Shown: one piece after another, positions 3,767 to 64,000 of the stretch
Numbering within the stretch: position 1 is the first letter of the stretch
How the letters are laid out: each line of letters opens with the position of its first letter
Assembly: GCF_003074055.1 (NCBI RefSeq)
Contig: NZ_CP029043.1
Location: 5,262,501 to 5,326,500 of the forward strand
DNA length: 64,000 bases
Origin: Streptomyces nigra
GTDB taxonomy: Bacteria > Actinomycetota > Actinomycetes > Streptomycetales > Streptomycetaceae
Reading direction: 5' to 3'
The notes under the pieces: generated by a model
Told to the model about the DNA's origin: nothing
The model's input: the letters and a program-made list of their open reading frames with translations, nothing else
Databases searched by the model: none
Position numbers and translations under genes: made by a program

Positions 3767-4765
3767 GTGACCGCACCGATCGAGACAACGGGAGCGGAGG
3801 CCGGGGCACAGCCCGAGGCCGTGCTCTCAGGGATCGAGAAGAGCAAGATCGAGGGGCGTTCGCTGGGGCAGATCGCCTGGTCCCGGTTCAAGAAGGACAA
3901 GGTGGCCGTCGCCGGCGGCGTCATCGTCATCCTGCTGATCCTGCTCGCGATCCTGTCACGCCCCCTCCAGGCGCTGTTCGGCCTGGACCCCAACGCGCTC
4001 AACCAGGACCTCATCGATCCCAACACCTCGCTGCCCAAGGGTGACTTCGGCGGCATGAGCTGGGAGCACCCGCTGGGTGTCGAGCCGAAGTTCGGCCGTG
4101 ACATCGCCACCCGCATCCTCGAGGGCTCCTGGGTGTCCCTGGTCGTCGCGTTCGGCGCCACGCTCCTGTCGAACACGATCGGCGCCGTCCTCGGCGTCGT
4201 CGCCGGCTACTACGGCGGCCGGGTCGACACGATCATCAGCCGGCTGATGGACACCTTCCTGGCCTTCCCGCTGCTGCTGTTCGCCATCGCCATCTCGGCC
4301 ACCCTGCAGGGCGGTGCCTTCGGCCTGGAGGGCCTGCCGCTGCACATCAGCGTGCTGATCTTCATCATCGGTTTCTTCAACTGGCCGTATCTGGGCCGCA
4401 TCGTCCGCGGTCAGACCCTGGCCCTCAGGGAGCGCGAGTTCGTCGACGCCTCCCGGGGGATGGGAGCCAAGGGGCCGTACATCCTCTTCCGGGAGCTCCT
4501 CCCGAACCTGGTCGGCCCGATCATCGTCTACTCGACGCTGCTCATCCCGACGAACATCCTTTTCGAGGCCAGCCTGAGCTTCCTCGGTGTCGGCATCCAG
4601 CCCCCGCAGGCTTCCTGGGGCGGCATGCTCAACCAGGCGGTCGACTTCTACGAGGTCGACCCGCAGTTCATGATCGTGCCCGGCCTCGCCATCTTCGTCA
4701 CCGTCCTGGCGTTCAACCTGCTCGGCGACGGACTCCGCGACGCTCTCGACCCGCGCAGCCGCTGA
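3767..4765 (+). CDS. Dipeptide/oligopeptide ABC transporter permease (DppC-type)
   Basis: The inner-membrane permease has 332 aa, with the DppC/OppC signature. An N-terminal cytoplasmic segment (SLGQIAWSRFKKDKVAVAGG) leads into a first membrane helix. A periplasmic part with HPLGVEPKFGRDIATRIL follows, then five more helices with the EAA-type coupling loop EFVDASRGMGAKGPYILFRE near residues 223-242. I chose the GTG at 3767 because it has a GAGGGG site and matches the usual N-terminal length; an upstream ATG at 3692 would add 25 Arg-rich residues. It is the first gene of a five-gene operon ending at 10104. The permease preceding the binding protein is less usual than the order binding protein first. 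Confidence 0.92.
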   Translation: MTAPIETTGAEAGAQPEAVLSGIEKSKIEGRSLGQIAWSRFKKDKVAVAGGVIVILLILLAILSRPLQALFGLDPNALNQDLIDPNTSLPKGDFGGMSWEHPLGVEPKFGRDIATRILEGSWVSLVVAFGATLLSNTIGAVLGVVAGYYGGRVDTIISRLMDTFLAFPLLLFAIAISATLQGGAFGLEGLPLHISVLIFIIGFFNWPYLGRIVRGQTLALREREFVDASRGMGAKGPYILFRELLPNLVGPIIVYSTLLIPTNILFEASLSFLGVGIQPPQASWGGMLNQAVDFYEVDPQFMIVPGLAIFVTVLAFNLLGDGLRDALDPRSR

Positions 4766-4823
4766 CATGCGGCCGCGACGAGAGCCCATCAAGTTTCCAA
4801 CTATGGAGGGGAAGCAGACCATC

Positions 4824-6575
4824 ATGCGAAGGTCAGTGCTGGCCGCGGTTGCGGTCGTCGGCAGTGCGAGCTTGCTGCTTTCGGCCTGCAGCAAGGCCGA
4901 TGACAAGTCGGACAACAACGGATCGAAGTCGGCCGGTGCCAACGCCGCGACCAAGGGCGTCGTCAACGCTTCCACCCAGGCGGGTGGGACGGTCACGTAC
5001 GAGTACTCCGACGTCCCGGACTCCTTCGACCCGGGCAACACGTACTACGCGTACATGTACAACCTCAGCCGGCTGTACGCCCGTCCGCTGATGACGTTCA
5101 AGCCCGGTGCCGGCGAGGCCGGCAACGAGCTGGTCCCGGACCTGGCCTCCGCCCCGGGCGAGCCCAGCGACGGCGGCAAGACCTGGACGTACAAGCTGCG
5201 TCCGGGCCTGAAGTACGAGGACGGCACCCCGATCACGTCGAAGGACGTGAAGTACGCCGTCGAGCGCTCCAACTTCGCGCGTGACGTGCTCTCCCTCGGC
5301 CCCAGCTACTTCCAGCAGTTCCTCGAGGGCGGCGACAAGTACAAGGGCCCGTACAAGGACAAGAGCGACAAGGGCATCTCGTCCATCCAGACCCCGGACG
5401 ACACCACGATCGTCTTCAAGCTGAACCGCGCCTTCCAGGAGTTCGACTACCTGGTCGCCACCCCGCAGACGGCCCCCGTGCCGAAGGCGCAGGACACCGG
5501 CGTCGACTACGTCAAGAAGATCGTGTCGTCGGGCTCCTACAAGTTCCAGAGCTACCAGGAGGGCAAGGAAGCCGTCCTGGTCCGCAACGAGAACTGGGAC
5601 GCCAAGAGCGACCCGCTGCGCAAGCAGTACCCCGAGAAGATCGTCGTCAAGCTGAAGGTCAACGCCGAGACGATCGACCAGGACGTCATGTCCGGCAAGG
5701 CCATCGACCTCGGTGGTACGGGCGTCCAGGCCGCGACCCAGGCGAAGGTCGTCAACTCCTCGGACCAGAAGGCCAACACCGACAACACCTACGGTGGCCG
5801 CCTGGTCTACATGGCGATCAACACCAAGCTCGCGCCGTTCGACAAGGTCGAGTGCCGCAAGGCCGTGGAGTTCGCGGTCAACAAGGTCTCCGTGCAGACG
5901 GCCCTCGGCGGCCCGATCCGCGGTGACATCGCCTCCACCGTCCTGCCGCCGGACATCCCGGGCTACCAGAAGTCCGACCTGTACGCGACGCCCGGCAACA
6001 AGGGCGACGTGGCCAAGGCCAAGGACCAGCTGAAGGCCTGCGGCAAGACGTCGATCGACACCAACATCTCGGCGCGCAGCGACCGTCCGGCGGAGATCGA
6101 CGCGGCCACCGCGATCATCGACTCGCTGAAGAAGGTCGGCATCAACGCCAGCCTGAAGCAGTTCCCGTCGGGCAAGTACTTCACCGACGCCGCGGGTGTG
6201 CCGCAGTTCAACAAGAAGCAGAACATCGGCCTGCACATGATGCAGTGGGGTGCCGACTGGCCGTCCGGCTACGGCTTCCTGCAGCAGATCCTGCACAGCG
6301 ACGCGATCGGCGAGTCCGGCAACACCAACCTGTCGCAGCTCGACAACAAGGACGTCGACTCGCTGCTGGAGAAGGCCATCGCCAGCGAGGACCAGGGCGA
6401 GCGCGACGGCCTCTACGCCCAGATCGACAAGAAGGCGATGGAGGAGGCGGCCCTCGTTCCGCTGACCTACTTCAAGGTCCTGCTGTACCGCCCGGCCGGC
6501 TTCACCAACCTGGTGTCGACGGCTGCCTTCAGCGGTCAGTACGACTACCTCAACATCGGTACGACCAAGAAGTAG
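4824..6575 (+). CDS. Peptide ABC transporter substrate-binding lipoprotein (family 5)
   Basis: The protein is 583 aa. It starts with a lipoprotein signal (MRRSVLAAVAVVGSASLLLS, lipobox LSAC, Cys near residue 20) and a Lys/Asp/Ser-rich linker. The SBP_bac_5 domain follows, with TYEYSDVPDSFDPG near residue 55 and KTWTYKLRPGLKYEDGTPIT near residues 118-137. The ATG at 4824 is chosen because GGAGGGGAA precedes it and it gives a perfect signal peptide; an upstream in-frame ATG at 4767 would bury the signal. It binds peptides outside the membrane and delivers them to the two permeases. Substrate specificity cannot be read from the sequence. Confidence 0.93.
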   Translation: MRRSVLAAVAVVGSASLLLSACSKADDKSDNNGSKSAGANAATKGVVNASTQAGGTVTYEYSDVPDSFDPGNTYYAYMYNLSRLYARPLMTFKPGAGEAGNELVPDLASAPGEPSDGGKTWTYKLRPGLKYEDGTPITSKDVKYAVERSNFARDVLSLGPSYFQQFLEGGDKYKGPYKDKSDKGISSIQTPDDTTIVFKLNRAFQEFDYLVATPQTAPVPKAQDTGVDYVKKIVSSGSYKFQSYQEGKEAVLVRNENWDAKSDPLRKQYPEKIVVKLKVNAETIDQDVMSGKAIDLGGTGVQAATQAKVVNSSDQKANTDNTYGGRLVYMAINTKLAPFDKVECRKAVEFAVNKVSVQTALGGPIRGDIASTVLPPDIPGYQKSDLYATPGNKGDVAKAKDQLKACGKTSIDTNISARSDRPAEIDAATAIIDSLKKVGINASLKQFPSGKYFTDAAGVPQFNKKQNIGLHMMQWGADWPSGYGFLQQILHSDAIGESGNTNLSQLDNKDVDSLLEKAIASEDQGERDGLYAQIDKKAMEEAALVPLTYFKVLLYRPAGFTNLVSTAAFSGQYDYLNIGTTKK

Positions 6576-6599
6576 CCCCGGAAGGCAGGTGAAGGCTTT

Positions 6600-6631
6600 G
6601 GTGCCCGCGGGCCATGCGGCCCGCGGGCACC
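6600..6631 (+). promoter_or_regulatory. Intercistronic hairpin after the binding-protein gene
   Basis: A perfect 14-bp inverted repeat, GGTGCCCGCGGGCC and GGCCCGCGGGCACC with the 4-nt loop ATGC, lies 24 nt after the binding-protein stop and 13 nt before the GTG of the next permease. There is no U tract, so it is unlikely to be a full terminator. In ABC operons such hairpins commonly protect or partly terminate the upstream transcript so that binding protein exceeds permease. That role is inferred here. Confidence 0.7.
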
Positions 6632-6644
6632 AGCGCCGATCCCC

Positions 6645-7648
6645 GTGATCTCGTATATCCTCCGCCGGACGCTCGCGGCAGTGATCCTGCTGCTGGTCGT
6701 CACCGCGGTCACCTTCGCGATCTTCTTCCTGCTGCCCCGGCTCGCCGGCCAGACGGCCGACCAGCTGGCCCAGCAGTACATCGGGAAGAGTCCCACCCAG
6801 GCCGACATCGAGGCGGTCAAGCAGAACCTCGGTCTCGACCAGCCCGTGTACGTGCAGTACTGGGACTTCATCAAGGGGATCGTCTCCGGCGCCACCTACG
6901 ACCTCGGCCCCACCACGGCGCACTGCAACGCGCCGTGCTTCGGCTACTCCTTCAAGACGCACGTCGAGGTCTGGCCCCAGCTCACCGACCGGATGCCCGT
7001 GACGGTCTCCCTGGCCGCCGGTGCCGCCGTGCTGTGGCTGGTGGGCGGTGTGACGGCCGGTGTGATCTCCGCGCTGAAGCCGCGGTCGTTCGCCGACCGC
7101 ACGTTCATGGGCATCGCCCTCGCGGGTGTCTCGCTGCCCATGTTCTTCACCGGCCAGCTGGCGCTGTTCCTTTTCACCTACCAGTGGCCGATCTTCGGCC
7201 GGGAGTACGTGCCGTTCACCGAGAACCCCTCGCAGTGGGCCAACACGCTCTTCCCCGCCTGGTGTTCGCTCGCCCTGCTGTACTCCGCCATCTACGCCCG
7301 GCTCACCCGCTCGGGGATGCTGGAAACGATGAACGAGGACTTCATCCGCAGCGCCCGCGCCAAGGGCCTGCGGGAGCGCAAGGTCGTCGTCCGGCACGGT
7401 CTGCGGGCCGCGCTGACGCCGATCATCACCGTGTTCGGCATGGACCTCGGACTGCTGCTCGGCGGCGCCGTGATCACCGAGACGGTCTTCTCCCTGCACG
7501 GCATCGGCGAGTACGCGGTGCAGTCCATCCGGGACAACGACCTGCCGCCCATCCTCGGCGTCACGCTCCTGGCCGCCTTCTTCGTCGTCCTCGCAAACTT
7601 CCTGGTGGACCTGTTGTACGCCGCCGCCGACCCGCGGGTGAGGATCTC

Positions 7649-7652
<4 letters not shown>
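6645..7652 (+). CDS. Dipeptide/oligopeptide ABC transporter permease (DppB-type)
   Basis: This 335-aa inner-membrane permease has the DppB/OppB plan. The first helix begins at residue 1 ([19 protein letters not shown]). The periplasmic region contains [18 protein letters not shown], and the EAA loop [20 protein letters not shown] lies near residues 228-247. The end [10 protein letters not shown] is typical of the family. It starts at GTG 6645, preceded by GATCCCC and the hairpin at 6600-6631. It should pair with the 3767 permease to form the channel. A cysteine-containing insert, [10 protein letters not shown], in the first periplasmic loop (residues about 89-98) could form a disulfide. Confidence 0.92.
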
Positions 7653-8742
<1,090 letters not shown>

Positions 8743-8746
<4 letters not shown>

Positions 8747-10104
8747 GTGAGACGAAGAAATCGGACGCGGCCGTACCGGCCCAGGCGCCGGCCCCCGCCG
8801 AGGAGCGCGAGGTGCTGCTCAAGGTCGAGGGCCTGCAGAAGCACTTCCCGATCCGCAAGGGCGTCCTCCAGCGTCAGGTCGGCGCGGTCAAGGCCGTCGA
8901 CGGCATCGACTTCGAGGTGCGCAAGGGCGAGACCCTGGGCGTGGTCGGGGAGTCCGGCTGCGGCAAGTCGACCATGGGCCGGGTCATCACCCGCCTCCAG
9001 GACCCGACGGGCGGCTCGATCCACTTCGAGGGCAAGGACATCACGCGGCTGAACACGGCCGGGATGCGCCCGCTGCGGCGGGACATCCAGATGATCTTCC
9101 AGGACCCGTACGGCTCCCTGAACCCGCGGCACACCATCGGCTCGATCGTCTCGGCGCCCTTCCGGCTCCAGGGCGTCGAGCCCGAGGGCGGGGTGAAGAA
9201 GGAGGTCCAGCGGCTCCTGGAGCTGGTGGGCCTGAGCCCCGAGCACTACAACCGCTACCCGCACGAGTTCTCCGGCGGCCAGCGCCAGCGCATCGGCATC
9301 GCCCGCGCGCTCGCGCTCAAGCCGAAGCTGGTCGTGGCGGACGAGCCGGTCTCCGCCCTGGACGTCTCCATCCAGGCGCAGGTCGTCAACCTCATGGACG
9401 ACCTCCAGGAGGAGCTCGGCCTGACCTACGTGATCATCGCGCACGACCTCTCGGTCGTCCGGCACGTGTCGGACCGTATCGCGGTGATGTACCTCGGCAA
9501 GATCGTCGAGCTCGCCGACCGCACCTCGCTGTACGAGGCGCCGATGCACCCGTACACCAAGGCCCTGATGTCGGCGGTGCCGGTCCCGGACCCCAAGCGC
9601 CGGGGCGCCAAGAGCGAGCGCATCCTGCTCCGTGGCGACGTGCCCTCGCCGATCGCCCCGCCGCCCGGCTGCCGTTTCCACACGCGCTGCTGGAAGGCGA
9701 CCGAGGTCTGCCGGACGGTGGAGCCCCCGCTGCTGGAGCTGCGGCCCGGCCAGCGCGTGGCCTGCCACCACCCGGAGAACTTCGAGGACCAGCAGCCGCA
9801 GGACACGGTGCTGCTGACCGCCGCCAAGGAGGCCGCCGAGCTGGTGGCCGACGAGGTGCTCGCGGAGTCCGCGCAGACGTCGGCGGCGGTGGCGGCCGAG
9901 GTGCTGCCGCAGGCCGGGAAGGTCACGAAGGACGCCTCGAAGGATGTCTCGAAGGGCGTCTCCGAGGGCGACTCGCAGGACGTCTCCAAGGACGTCTCGA
10001 AGGCGCCGGAGCCGGCTGCCGAGGCCCCGGAGCCGGCTGCCGAGGCCCCGGAGACGGACGCCGAGGCGCCCGCGGACGCTCCCGCCGAGGGCGACGAGAA
10101 GTAG
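8743..10104 (+). CDS. Peptide ABC transporter ATP-binding protein (DppF-type) with a repetitive tail
   Basis: This 453-aa ATPase is the second nucleotide-binding subunit. It shows Walker [10 protein letters not shown] near residue 69, [15 protein letters not shown], signature [15 protein letters not shown], Walker [13 protein letters not shown] and H-loop IIAHDLSVV. The family domain ends with [15 protein letters not shown] and a CHHPE motif near residue 346. About 105 more residues follow that are not part of the family: Ala/Glu-rich, with KDVSK-like repeats (from about 395) and EPAAEAP repeats (from about 425). It starts at a GTG overlapping the previous stop. The tail is probably disordered and its role is unknown. 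Confidence 0.9.
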
Positions 10105-59148: not shown

Positions 59149-60237
59149 ATGACGACGCCCACGATCGAGCTCAAGCCCTCCGCCAGCCCGCTCTCCTCCG
59201 CGGAGCGCGACGCGATCCTGGCCGACCCGGGGTTCGGCCGCCACTTCACCGACCACATGGTGACGATCAAGTGGACCGAGGGCCGCGGCTGGCACGACGG
59301 CCAGCTCGTGCCGTACGCGCCGCTCTCCCTCGACCCGGCCACCATGGTCCTGCACTACGCGCAGGAGATCTTCGAGGGCCTCAAGGCGTACCGCCGGCCC
59401 GACGGGACCGTCGCCACCTTCCGCCCCGAGAAGAACGCCCTCCGCTTCCAGCGCTCGGCCCGCCGGCTCGGCATGCCCGAGCTGCCGGTCGAGACGTTCA
59501 TCGAGGCCTGTGACGCGCTGGTGAAGCAGGACCAGGCGTGGGTCCCCGCGCACGGCGGCGAGGAGTCCCTGTACCTGCGGCCGTTCATGTTCGCGACCGA
59601 GGTCGGGCTGGGCGTCCGGCCCGCCGGCGAGTACCTGTTCATCGTCATCGCCTCCCCGGCCGGCGCCTACTTCCCGGGCGGCGTCAAGCCGGTGTCGATC
59701 TGGGTCTCCGAGGACCACGTCCGCGCGGTGCCCGGCGGCATGGGCGACGCAAAGACCGGCGGCAACTACGCCGCCTCCCTGCTGGCCCAGGCCGAGGCGG
59801 CCGCCGAGGGCTGCGCCCAGGTCTGCTACCTCGACGCGGTCGAGCGCAAGTGGGTCGAGGAACTCGGCGGCATGAACCTGTACTTCGTGTACGGCGACCG
59901 GATCGTCACCCCGTCCCTCACCGGCTCCATCCTGGAGGGCGTCACCCGTGACTCGCTGCTGCAGGTCGCCCGTGACCTCGGCTACACGGCCGAGGAGGGC
60001 CGCGTCTCCGTCGACCAGTGGCAGCGCGACGCGGAGAACGGCACCCTCACCGAGGTCTTCGCCTGCGGCACCGCGGCGGTCATCACTCCGGTCGGCACCG
60101 TCAAGCGCACCGGCGCCGAGTGGCAGCAGGGCGGCGGCGAGCCCGGCGAGGTCACGATGAGGCTGCGCCAGGCTCTCCTCGACATCCAGCGCGGCACGGC
60201 CGACGACAAGCACGGCTGGATGCACCCGCTGGGTTAG
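59149..60237 (+). CDS. ilvE: Branched-chain amino acid aminotransferase
   Basis: The 362-aa PLP enzyme carries out the last step of valine, leucine and isoleucine synthesis and the first of their breakdown. The PLP lysine is in [13 protein letters not shown] near residue 204. [19 protein letters not shown] and [20 protein letters not shown] are family blocks. GTGAAGGAC precedes the ATG. A -10-like GATAAT lies at 59033-59038 in the 264-nt leader; no leader peptide was found. The stop overlaps that of the convergent NCS1 permease by a few nt. Confidence 0.95.
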
Positions 60238-61685
60238 TCGTCGGCAGGCACCTTCACGGCCGCCGTGGGCACGCTGTCCACGGCGGCCGCGGTGTTCGCG
60301 GGCGCGGCGGCGCCGGGGGTCAGCAGCAGATACGCCGCGCCCCCGACCAGCCCCGACAGCAGGAAGCTGCAGTCCACCCCGCCGGTCAGGCCCAGCAGCG
60401 GCCCCTCGTACGACGGCAGGGCGACCGCCAGGACGCCCACCACCGCGCCCAGCGTCCAGGACACCGTCGCCCGTATGTTCCAGCCGCCCCGGTACCAGTA
60501 GATCCCGCCCCGTGCCCGGCGGTTGAACACCTGGAGCGCCTCCGCGTCGTACACGCCCCCGCAGCGGGCGAAGCCGATGAGGGTGATGACCGCCCAGGGC
60601 GTGCCGATCGCCGTCAGCAGCAGCACGAACGACGTCATCGCGTCCTGGGTGCTGGAGGCGTAGTGCCCGGCGAAGACGCACACGGTGGCGACGACGGCGA
60701 CCGCGTACGTGGCCGTCGCGCGGGAGGCGCGCGGCAGGATCGCGTCCAGGTCCAGGCCCATCGAGTAGAGCATCAGGCCCGCGTTGCCGACCGATCCGGC
60801 CGAGGCGGCGAGCAGCAGCGGCAGCAGGTACCAGTCGGGGGAGGCGTCGACCAGCGGCCCCGCGTAGTCGAGGGCCGCGCGTGCCGCGTACGCCGTGAAG
60901 GTGCCGAAGAGCTGCGGCACCAGCAGGCCCAGGATCAGGCCGAGCCAGGTCGCGTGCAGCACCCGGCGCGCGGAGTGGCGGACGGGTGAGATGTAGCGGG
61001 TGTAGTCGCCGAGCAGGGTGATGAACGCGATCGGCCCGGACAGTCCGGCCGCGACCGCCGACAGCAGCCAGGTCGGCCAGAAGCCGCCCAGCAGATAGCC
61101 GCCGGCCTCCGGGAGCGCGCCGGTCGTGAAGTGCGGGGCGTAGGCGATCACGCCGAGGACCAGCAGGGCCGTCATGCCGATCGCGAGGACGCGGGACAGG
61201 GCGAGCAGCACGCGGTAGCCGTACACCGCGCCCGCGACGGTCGCGGCGGCCAGCAGCGCGTAGACCACGCCGTACGCGACGTCGTCGGCCGGCATGCCGG
61301 TCAGGCGGCCCAGTACGCCGACCATCACGTCGCCGCCGATCCACACGGTGAGCGCGGAGTATCCGAGAGCCAGCAGCAGGCCGACGACCGAGCCGACCAG
61401 GCGTCCGCGCACGCCGAACTGGGCGCCGGACGACGTCGACAGGTTGGTCGCCGTGCGCAGCGAGACCAGGGCCAGCGGGGCGGTGAGGACGGTGCCGGCC
61501 AGGGTGCCGAGCACGATCGAGCTGACGGAGGCCCACCAGCCGAGACCGAACGACGGCGGCAGCCAGCCGAAGACGATCACTCCCAGACAGAGATTCGACC
61601 CGAGCAGGATCGACACGAGGTCCTTCGGTCCACTGGTGCGTTCGTCCTCGGGGATGGTGTCGACCCCGCGCTGTTCCCTCGGCAT
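60234..61685 (-). CDS. NCS1-family nucleobase/ureide permease
   Basis: The 483-aa transporter has about 12 hydrophobic segments, including [20 protein letters not shown] near residue 28 and the NCS1-type helix with [17 protein letters not shown]. Members import cytosine, allantoin, hydantoins or purines with a cation. Being divergent from urease genes suggests a nitrogen-rich substrate whose breakdown releases urea (allantoin or similar); this is inference. Start ATG 61685 has GAGGGAGA upstream. It shares a sequence box with ureAB. Confidence 0.85.
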
Positions 61686-61701
61686 GGCTGATCTCCCTCG
61701 A

Positions 61702-61717
61702 TTAGAGTGCCGTTCAA
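61702..61717. promoter_or_regulatory. Shared box copy 1 (permease side)
   Basis: TTAGAGTGCCGTTCAA lies 17 nt upstream of the NCS1 permease start. It matches the copy at 61771-61786 in 13 of 16 positions (TTAGAGTG-N2-GTTC-N-A). Its spacing from the permease start suits an operator overlapping the promoter. Confidence 0.5.
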
Positions 61718-61770
61718 TCTGAGGTGCGATCGTCCTCGTCGTCAACCCTTGGAATGCTGGATTCTGACGT

Positions 61771-61786
61771 TTAGAGTGATGTTCTA
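61771..61786. promoter_or_regulatory. Shared box copy 2 (urease side)
   Basis: TTAGAGTGATGTTCTA, extended to TTAGA-N7-TCTAA, is a palindrome 31 nt upstream of the ureAB ATG. The two boxes are 69 nt apart. A single regulator bound to both could coordinate the divergent genes. Confidence 0.5.
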
Positions 61787-61816
61787 ACTTATGGCGGGCA
61801 AGGAGGAGGCCGCGGT

Positions 61817-62512
61817 ATGAGACTGACGCCCACGGAACGTGACCGGCTGCTGCTCTTCGGTGCCGCGGAACTGGCGCGGGCCCGCCGCGCGCGCGGGCTG
61901 CGGCTCAACGTCCCCGAGGCGACCGCGCTCATCGCGGACACGGTGTGCGAGGCCGCCCGCGACGGCCTCCGGCTCACCGAGGCGATCGGGCGGGCCCGCT
62001 CCGTGCTCGGCCCGGACGACGTCCTGCCCGGTGTCGCGGACGTCGTCACCGAGGTGCACGTCGAGGCCGTCTTCGACGACGGCTCCCGGCTCGCGGTCGT
62101 CTCCGACCCGATCGGCGGCGGCCTGGGCGAGCACGCCCCGGGCGCCCTGCTGCCCGGCCCCGAGCACGCCGAACCCGAGCCGGCCCTGCGGCTGACGGTC
62201 ACCAACACCGCCGCCGTGCCGGTCTCCGTCACCTCCCACTTCCACTTCTTCGAGGCCAACCCGCGCCTCGACTTCACCCGGGCCCAGGCGTACGGGATGC
62301 GGCTCGCCGTGCCCGCCGGGTCCTCCGTCCGGTTCGGGCCGGGGGAGAGCGCCGAGGTCGGGCTCGTCCCCATCGGCGGCGACCGCGTCGCCATCGGCTT
62401 CGCGGGCCTGGTCGACGGGCCGCTGGACGCGCCCGGCGCCCGCGAGGAGGCCCTGCGCCGGGCCGCCGCCTGCGGCTACCTGGGCACCGACGAGAAGGAG
62501 GCCGGCCGATGA
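61817..62512 (+). CDS. ureA: Urease gamma/beta fusion subunit
   Basis: The 231-aa protein fuses the gamma subunit (residues about 1-100: LTPTERDRLLLFGAAELARA, GVADVVTEVHVEAVFDDG) to the beta subunit (about 105-225: TNTAAVPVSVTSHFHFFEAN, NPRLDFTRAQAYGMRLAVPA). Urease hydrolyses urea to ammonia and carbamate. Fused gamma-beta subunits are known in some bacteria. AGGAGGAGG lies upstream. The stop overlaps ureC as ATGA. Confidence 0.88.
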   Translation: MRLTPTERDRLLLFGAAELARARRARGLRLNVPEATALIADTVCEAARDGLRLTEAIGRARSVLGPDDVLPGVADVVTEVHVEAVFDDGSRLAVVSDPIGGGLGEHAPGALLPGPEHAEPEPALRLTVTNTAAVPVSVTSHFHFFEANPRLDFTRAQAYGMRLAVPAGSSVRFGPGESAEVGLVPIGGDRVAIGFAGLVDGPLDAPGAREEALRRAAACGYLGTDEKEAGR

Positions 62513-64000
62513 GCCGTCCCGGAGGACACCCCGCCGAGGCCCGCCGCCTCACCCCGCACGAGTACGCGGCCACCCACGGCCCCCGCGCCGGTGACCGCGT
62601 CCGGCTCGGCGACTCCGGGCTGACCGTCCGCGTCGAGTCCGACTCCCAGCGCCCGGGCGACGAGTTCCTCGCCGGGTTCGGCAAGACCGCCCGGGACGGG
62701 CTGCATCTGAAGGCGGCGTCCGTCCGCGAGACCTGCGACGTCGTCATCAGCAACGTCGTGGTCGTCGACGCGGTCCTCGGCATCCGCAAGGTGTCCATCG
62801 GCATCCGGCAGGGGCGGATCAGCGCCATCGGGCGGGCCGGGAACCCGGACACCCTCGACGGGGTCGACGTCGTCGTCGGCACGGGCACCTCGATCGTCTC
62901 CGGCGAGGGCCTGATCGCCACCGCCGGCGCCGTCGACACCCATGTCCATCTGCTGTCCCCGCGGGTCATGGAGGCGTCGCTCGCCTCCGGCGTCACCACG
63001 ATCATCGGCCAGGAGTTCGGACCGGTCTGGGGCGTCGGCGTCAACTCGCCCTGGGCGCTGCGGCACGCGTTCGGCGCCTTCGACGCCTGGCCGGTCAACA
63101 TCGGCTTCCTCGCCCGGGGTTCGTCCTCCCACGAGGCACCCCTGGTCGAGGCCCTCGCCGAGGGCGGCGCCTCCGGATTCAAGGTGCACGAGGACATGGG
63201 CGCCCACACCCGCGCGCTCGACACCGCCCTGCGCGTCGCCGAGGACCACGACGTCCAGGTCGCCCTGCACAGCGACGGCCTGAACGAGTGCCTGTCCGTC
63301 GAGGACACCCTGAGGGTGCTGGAGGGCCGCACCATCCACGCCTTCCACATCGAGGGCTGCGGCGGCGGGCACGTCCCGAACGTCCTGAAGATGGCCGGCG
63401 TCCCGAACGTCATCGGGTCCTCCACCAACCCCACCCTGCCCTTCGGCCGGGACGCCGTCGCCGAGCACTACGGCATGATCGTCTCCGTCCACGACCTCAA
63501 GACCGACCTGCCAGGCGACGCCGCCATGGCCCGTGACCGGATCCGCGCCGGGACCATGGGCGCCGAGGACGTCCTGCACGACCTGGGTGCGATCGGCATC
63601 ACCTCGTCCGACGCGCAGGGCATGGGCCGGGCCGGCGAGACCGTCCGGCGCACCCTCGCGATGGCCGGGAAGATGAAGGCGCAGTTCGGCGCGCCCGAGG
63701 ACCACGACAACGAGCGCGTCCTGCGCTACATCGCCAAGCTGACCATCAACCCGGCCCTCGCACACGGCCTCGCCCACGAGGTCGGATCGATCGAGGTCGG
63801 CAAGCTCGCCGACCTCGTGCTGTGGCGCCCCGAGTTCTTCGGTGCCAAGCCACAGCTCGTCCTCAAGGCCGGGTTCCCCGCGTACGGGGTGACCGGCGAC
63901 CCCAACGCGGCCACCGACACCTGCGAGCCCCTGGTGCTCGGCCCGCAGTTCGGGGCGTACGGCGCCACGCCCGCCGACCTCTCCGTGGCCTTCGTCGCGC
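62509..64000 (+). CDS. ureC: Urease alpha (catalytic) subunit, divergent type (3' end outside the window)
   Basis: The open frame covers 497 codons from ATG 62509 and continues past the edge. Active-site features seen by eye are the nickel His pair in DTHVHLLSPR, the carbamylated Lys in GFKVHEDMGAH, substrate His in ALHSDGLNE, His in FHIEGCGGGH and the Asp in SSDAQGMGR. The mobile-flap motif, normally VCHHL, reads SVHDL here: the flap Cys is replaced by Val, the His is kept. ADLVLWRPEFFGAKP is the C-terminal family block. Streptomyces often carry a second, more canonical ureABC elsewhere (from memory). Accessory genes may follow outside the window. Confidence 0.85.
   Translation, partial: MSRPGGHPAEARRLTPHEYAATHGPRAGDRVRLGDSGLTVRVESDSQRPGDEFLAGFGKTARDGLHLKAASVRETCDVVISNVVVVDAVLGIRKVSIGIRQGRISAIGRAGNPDTLDGVDVVVGTGTSIVSGEGLIATAGAVDTHVHLLSPRVMEASLASGVTTIIGQEFGPVWGVGVNSPWALRHAFGAFDAWPVNIGFLARGSSSHEAPLVEALAEGGASGFKVHEDMGAHTRALDTALRVAEDHDVQVALHSDGLNECLSVEDTLRVLEGRTIHAFHIEGCGGGHVPNVLKMAGVPNVIGSSTNPTLPFGRDAVAEHYGMIVSVHDLKTDLPGDAAMARDRIRAGTMGAEDVLHDLGAIGITSSDAQGMGRAGETVRRTLAMAGKMKAQFGAPEDHDNERVLRYIAKLTINPALAHGLAHEVGSIEVGKLADLVLWRPEFFGAKPQLVLKAGFPAYGVTGDPNAATDTCEPLVLGPQFGAYGATPADLSVAFVA

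Follow-up and report, generated by a model that had tools for sequence, protein, structure and literature searches.

Paired palindromic sites between an NCS1 permease gene and a ureAB-ureC-aguA-tetR operon of Streptomyces are predicted operators of the operon's own TetR-family protein

Two regulators that go by the name AguR have been described for agmatine deiminase operons. The one from P. aeruginosa is, in the accessible text of its description, a TetR repressor of the operon aguBA, which acts between the -35 and -10 elements and is released by agmatine (PMC4287709). The one from E. faecalis likewise regulates an agmatine deiminase operon but, according to the accessible part of the source, is a LuxR-type activator rather than a TetR protein as found here (PMC3796520). 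In S. coelicolor, the accessible portion of a transcriptomic study gives ureABC as SCO5525-5526 and counts SCO5527 with the agmatine-route genes, reports no effect of arginine or ArgR on the urease genes SCO5525-5526, and describes no regulator for these urease genes; by annotation the SCO5525-SCO5527 locus holds the same genes as the operon considered below (PMC3293853). A further point of reference is the BetI/TetR_C_6 branch of the TetR family: the TetR protein studied here shares with it an N-terminal DNA-binding TetR_N domain (PF00440, 54.6 bits for a cut-off of 24) and a C-terminal ligand/dimer domain of the BetI type (TetR_C_6, PF13977, 85.1 bits for a cut-off of 27). It scores well short of the BetI equivalog thresholds (68.6 bits where 201.3 are needed and 57.5 where 118 are needed) and would control genes other than those of BetI.

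The locus lies at the end of a window of 64,000 nucleotides from Streptomyces nigra, where an NCS1-family permease gene is divergent from an operon with the gene order ureAB-ureC-aguA-tetR. The TetR-family gene is the fourth and last gene of this operon, 1.3 kb past the window end. From gene order, SCO5525-SCO5527 are presumed orthologues of the operon genes. The features are given below in window positions, unless marked as genome positions.

60234-61685, minus strand: NCS1-family permease gene (PF02133, 332.8 bits), divergent from the operon, start taken as the ATG at 61685
61686-61816: intergenic region, with the permease gene on one side and the fused ureAB gene on the other
61702-61718, plus strand: box 1, TTAGAGTGCCGTTCAAT, predicted operator at the permease promoter and probably also a helper operator of the ure operon
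61771-61787, plus strand: box 2, TTAGAGTGATGTTCTAA, predicted main operator at the ureAB-ureC-aguA-tetR promoter
61817-62512, plus strand: ureAB, fused urease gamma/beta subunit gene
62509-64000, plus strand: ureC, urease alpha-type gene, cut by the window end and continuing to genome position 5326718
genome 5326746-5327771, beyond the window: aguA (PF04371)
genome 5327783-5328382 (65283-65882 if the window is extended): tetR, 199 aa, starting 11 nt after aguA

Like the P. aeruginosa system, this locus encodes a TetR protein together with a PAD-type deiminase, aguA being directly upstream of tetR, and has a site that overlaps a putative promoter. Unlike that system, it has no aguB, has urease-type genes and an NCS1 permease added, and displays two predicted operators 69 bp apart. 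By this comparison, the present system most likely works like P. aeruginosa AguR; we nevertheless do not file it as AguR because aguB is absent, the likeness is one of gene content and site position, and agmatine is only a proposed ligand. A literature search, which had most subscription papers outside its reach, returned no description of the operon TetR or its boxes. An autoregulated TetR repressor acting on twin operators is an ordinary mechanism; the regulator/box pair would be a new example of it.

A 17-bp palindromic site (consensus TTWGAGYGNYGYTCWAA) is present twice in the intergenic region, at a spacing of 69 bp. The stretches TTAGAGTGCCGTTC at 61702-61715 and TTAGAGTGATGTTC at 61771-61784, both on the plus strand, are offset by exactly 69 nt, and the 16-nt cores of the two boxes are identical at 13 of 16 bases. 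Box 2 is a palindrome of the form TTAGA-N7-TCTAA, and box 1 is a diverged, degenerate palindrome of the same design. The permease ATG (61685, minus strand) is 16 bp from the end of the 17-bp core of box 1, and the ureAB ATG (61817) is 29 bp from the end of the core of box 2. These coordinates and shared core bases confirm the preliminary description of two near-identical boxes, one of them palindromic, 69 nt apart and each near one of the divergent start codons. In the complete genome of 7,641,029 bases (7.64 Mb), the 14-nt pattern TTAGAGTGNNGTTC occurs without mismatches only at boxes 1 and 2; the 17-bp consensus with up to two mismatches recovers both boxes and one borderline site, that is three matches, with five for the reversed-pattern control. 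A regulon spread through the genome, which was also considered, is not supported, the genome having only the two sites. Within the window alone the statistics are modest, with four matches at up to two mismatches versus 1.1 expected, and a repeated 18-mer pair as good as the observed one in 2 of 300 shuffles of the 131-bp gap.

It is the conservation across related loci that is decisive for regarding the boxes as real, strongly conserved sites, binding to which is predicted. The preliminary description had proposed looking for them in orthologous permease/ureAB promoters, and box 2 is indeed present there with at most one mismatch in 79 of 80 related loci, these being the best 80 of 554 confirmed Streptomyces loci encoding UreAB relatives. 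A second, upstream site occurs in 78 of the 80 (7 with no mismatch, 51 with one, 16 with two, three with three and one with four); the exceptions are L034, which has neither box, and L051, where the contig is cut. Elsewhere in the same 80 loci, no match with up to two mismatches was found on the plus strand over 1,286,145 positions (window and own-genome copy included). A separate box before tetR itself was rejected on the same grounds, as no match within two mismatches lies outside the intergenic region in the 80 loci. Across the 38 permease-bearing loci with a 69-bp spacing (own locus included), mean information reaches 1.70 bits per base in box 1 and 1.81 in box 2, as against 0.84 between the boxes and 0.45 in the flanks, and the consensus reads TTnGAGnGnCGnTCAATGTGA-n17-CGTCAA-n3-TT-...-GTTTAGAGTGnTGnTCTAA. 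Chance similarity of two promoters is ruled out by the genus-wide conservation together with the near absence of the site elsewhere. The TetR gene itself is recovered by tblastn in 78 of the best 80 of 554 loci; the two without a match are L079, which stops at a contig end and whose genome does have the gene, and L034 from S. jeddahensis.

From these sequence comparisons we propose that, very probably, the TetR-family product of the final gene in the ureAB-ureC-aguA-tetR operon is a repressor with the boxes as its operators, through which both transcription units would be silenced together until a ligand releases them. A palindrome of 17 bp is the usual TetR operator design, and such an operator-like site is present near the regulator's own operon, in the form of box 2 at the operon promoter, where binding is predicted. 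A TetR dimer on box 2 would cover the -10 element of the operon promoter, and one on box 1 would cover the -10 element and start region of the divergent permease promoter. Permease and operon, the repressor gene included, would then be off together, making the protein an autoregulated repressor that would bind directly and presumably repress rather than activate. The preliminary description had noted that no regulator gene lies in the intergenic region and that the regulator must hence act in trans; this is literally true but misleading, since box 2 would control an operon in which the TetR gene stands fourth. Its suggestion of one regulator common to the permease and urease genes is strongly supported by the conservation of the sites and by their co-occurrence with the TetR gene (see below). 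Agmatine, or some other guanidino compound on which the AguA-type deiminase acts, or else the product of that enzyme, would most likely be the releasing ligand; against agmatine, ureABC would be an odd partner for a pure agmatine pathway. With this proposal, the second urease set of Streptomyces, given as unresponsive to arginine and ArgR in the accessible text of one transcriptomic study, acquires a testable regulator, an operator consensus and a regulon.

The putative promoter elements around the boxes are as follows.

61740-61745, minus strand: TTGACG, putative -35 of the permease promoter
61716-61721, minus strand: CAGATT, putative -10 of the permease promoter, overlapping the right arm of box 1, with a spacer of 18 bp
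61749-61754, plus strand: TTGGAA, putative -35 of the ureAB promoter, 17 bp before TAGAGT, read from the sequence
61772-61777, plus strand: TAGAGT, putative -10 of the ureAB promoter, inside the left arm of box 2

Neither the permease nor the ureAB promoter was picked up when a strict promoter consensus was used, so we infer these elements from conservation. In the footprint of the 38 loci, an AATGTG-type element is conserved at the presumed permease -10, and only two T's are well conserved in the neighbourhood of the TTGGAA hexamer. Over 79 loci (own included, with L034 and L051 left out), 7 of the 8 positions in the left arm of box 2 never vary whereas the right arm does, which is the pattern expected where a -10 overlaps one arm. 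Each box appears to overlap the -10 element of its own divergent promoter.

Box 1 is not just the box of the permease, since it is kept in all 26 loci examined that lack the permease. A final T is found in it in 52 of the 53 permease-bearing loci (own included) versus 11 of the 26 permease-less ones, and CGTCAA, the permease -35, occurs at the right spacing with up to one mismatch in 50 of 53 (own included) versus 3 of 26. The simplest reading of these figures would be that the permease promoter constrains the last base of box 1 where the permease is present; for the association of permease presence with this base and with CGTCAA, phylogenetic independence is not shown, as only four supported pairs are available and give no power. 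Because box 1 is kept in permease-less species where the permease promoter is mostly lost, it probably has a second function as an upstream helper operator of the operon and, from its place 69 bp ahead of box 2, probably makes repression of the operon stronger. It is possible, if rather unlikely, that box 1 instead serves the permease only and box 2 the urease operon only, with box 1 persisting as a decaying relic in permease-less species. This is favoured by the weaker box 1 of the permease-less loci L026, L035 and L049 (three to four mismatches), although three mismatches are also seen in the permease-bearing L072, and the same lack of power in the phylogenetically independent test weighs on its side. 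A relic would nonetheless hardly be expected in 26 of 26 loci that are spread over a ureC tree on which permease state must have changed at least 11 times, with well-supported branches forcing 4 of these changes. Nor does it sit well with loss of the permease -35 in 23 of these 26 loci when 14 of them have a box 1 with a fully symmetric final A and 19 retain a box spacing of 65-70 bp. Most spacings in the permease-less loci fall in a similar helical phase, to which we give no weight because the loci are related to one another. In three permease-less loci (L066, L076 and L085), the two boxes upstream of ureAB are separated by just 19-24 bp, in place of the usual 67 or so.

The helper role of box 1 aside, the assignment of both boxes to the operon's own TetR draws on a survey of 199 Streptomyces genomes, in which the site was defined as TTWGAGYGNYRYTCWAA with up to one mismatch. 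TetR matches at E <= 1e-30 were obtained in 134 genomes, of which the weak ones in G002 and G144 were counted as absent, the weakest one kept having an E-value of 2.0e-79. The site occurs in 136 genomes, the TetR orthologue in 132 and ureAB (E <= 1e-60) in 118. The site is present in 130 of the 132 TetR-bearing genomes versus 6 of the 67 that lack TetR (Fisher p 1.6e-41, a value that overstates independence as the genomes are related). The anonymous TetR protein thereby gains predicted sites in roughly two of every three Streptomyces genomes surveyed. The two TetR-bearing genomes without the site are G072, where aguA is truncated and no site is found within one mismatch, and G198, which is cut by a contig end; in the two genomes with ureAB and no TetR (G002 and G073), the site is likewise missing. 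A perfect copy of the site in G039 lies far from the operon (L136, 5040-5056), where a Na/H exchanger (antiporter) gene ends and ahead of a gene for an MFS transporter.

All 16 loci from TetR genomes scored as lacking ureAB were inspected. G088 and G138 do carry a diverged ureAB, G056 and G198 are cut by contig ends, and G149 has only gene remnants beside tetR. In ten genomes aguA-tetR is intact and ureABC is gone, and in 10 of these 10 the site (up to two mismatches) lies upstream of aguA, three of them (L120, L133 and L134) having the permease and a 69-bp box pair as well. The site therefore belongs to the aguA-tetR pair, with ureABC and the permease as optional members. The initial suggestion that the boxes coordinate ureide or purine-type uptake with urea hydrolysis is accordingly not established, aguA being the most constant companion of the site and TetR, whereas ureABC and the permease come and go. 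The G149 locus (L132, 5425-6543) retains the boxes and tetR, but all that is left in between are short pieces resembling ureAB and aguA, as though the central part of the operon had dropped out. In S. jeddahensis (L034, 4705-11500), ureAB-ureC-aguA is kept and now stands behind amino-acid-permease and amidohydrolase (Amidohydro_3) genes; its whole 8.4-Mb genome has no TetR at E <= 1e-30 and no site within one mismatch. Both TetR and the sites are present in its neighbours in the ureC tree (L042, L047 and L065), and thus sites and TetR are jointly absent from this species, which still has the regulated genes.

TetR matches at E <= 1e-45 among 394 class-wide genomes come only from Streptomyces members and from four genomes of one other family (f17), whose proteins (L169-L172) are 48-51% identical to the operon TetR. 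All four f17 loci have TTTGAATGNCATTCAAA-type palindromes in tandem, 19-20 bp apart and within about 150 bp of the TetR gene, with the same 17-bp geometry as the boxes of the Streptomyces locus. The divergent neighbour in L169 is an amino-acid permease by Pfam scan, and that in L171 is alike, judging by its start. A Streptomyces paralogue of the operon TetR (47-49% identity; L175 and L176 examined) adjoins a different permease gene, for which PF02133 was shown in L175, with weaker related sites of one to three mismatches lying between. The recognition-helix region is nearly identical in the operon TetR, the f17 relatives and the Streptomyces paralogue. Since a second TetR of this branch stands beside another NCS1-type permease with related sites, members of this branch may regulate several transporters.

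It might instead be some other trans-acting protein that binds the boxes, perhaps a general nitrogen regulator like GlnR, with the operon's TetR gene conserved only as a passenger. Bacteria often place their urease genes under nitrogen control, and the binding of TetR to the boxes is here a prediction; we still regard such a regulator as very unlikely, in that a site confined to two places in the genome is a poor fit to a global regulator, and would not be expected to follow aguA-tetR where ureABC is gone, to be missing along with TetR from S. jeddahensis with the target genes still there, or to have a related palindrome beside distant TetR relatives with different neighbours. That the boxes are mainly promoter cores with TAGAGT-type -10 hexamers, alike by promoter similarity and without operator function, would account for the invariant left arm of box 2, which reads as a -10, and for the overlap of box 1 with the presumed permease -10, but is very improbable, given that the full 17-bp palindrome is conserved in both arms, that the left arm of box 1 is on the wrong strand for the permease -10 and box 1 persists where the permease promoter is gone, and that core elements would not co-occur with one TetR gene genus-wide.

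The proposed regulation by the operon's TetR suggests that an agmatine-deiminase-type enzyme, an NCS1 permease and a urease set are connected, the urease set lacking accessory genes of its own, none of which were seen in the ureAB-ureC-aguA-tetR operon. A second, conventional-looking urease cluster in the same genome (L010, 940000-956000), which we take to contain ureA-, ureC-, ureF- and ureG-like genes, probably supplies the maturation proteins for the operon's ureABC. No aguB-like gene was found in the operon, the nearest AguB-model matches being at 6.12 Mb and below the cut-off. The deiminase encoded by aguA is of the PAD type and the sole PF04371 protein of its genome; it is related to plant agmatine iminohydrolase, with which a C-terminal IHCITQQQP stretch is aligned. 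A PDB sequence search with the permease gave no match. Rather than joining urea hydrolysis with purine uptake, the regulon might be pictured as a dedicated guanidino pathway, in which the permease would import a guanidino compound, the AguA-like deiminase would convert it to urea or a ureido compound, UreABC would split this product and TetR would sense the substrate. In line with such a pathway, both enzymes score under the equivalog cut-offs of the standard families, the AguA-like protein with 306.6 of 381.8 for the NCBIfam agmatine deiminase and UreC with 624.6 of 680 for TIGR01792, and a differently arranged cluster of the same enzymes and an NCS1 permease exists in L173. We consider it doubtful, as UreC aligns along its length with true ureases and keeps the urease framework, and ten genomes have aguA-tetR without ureABC. 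In the L173 cluster (G002, 4078-9204), which has no box, the NCS1 permease gene, aguA, ureAB and ureC follow one another with the same orientation, and these members are much diverged.
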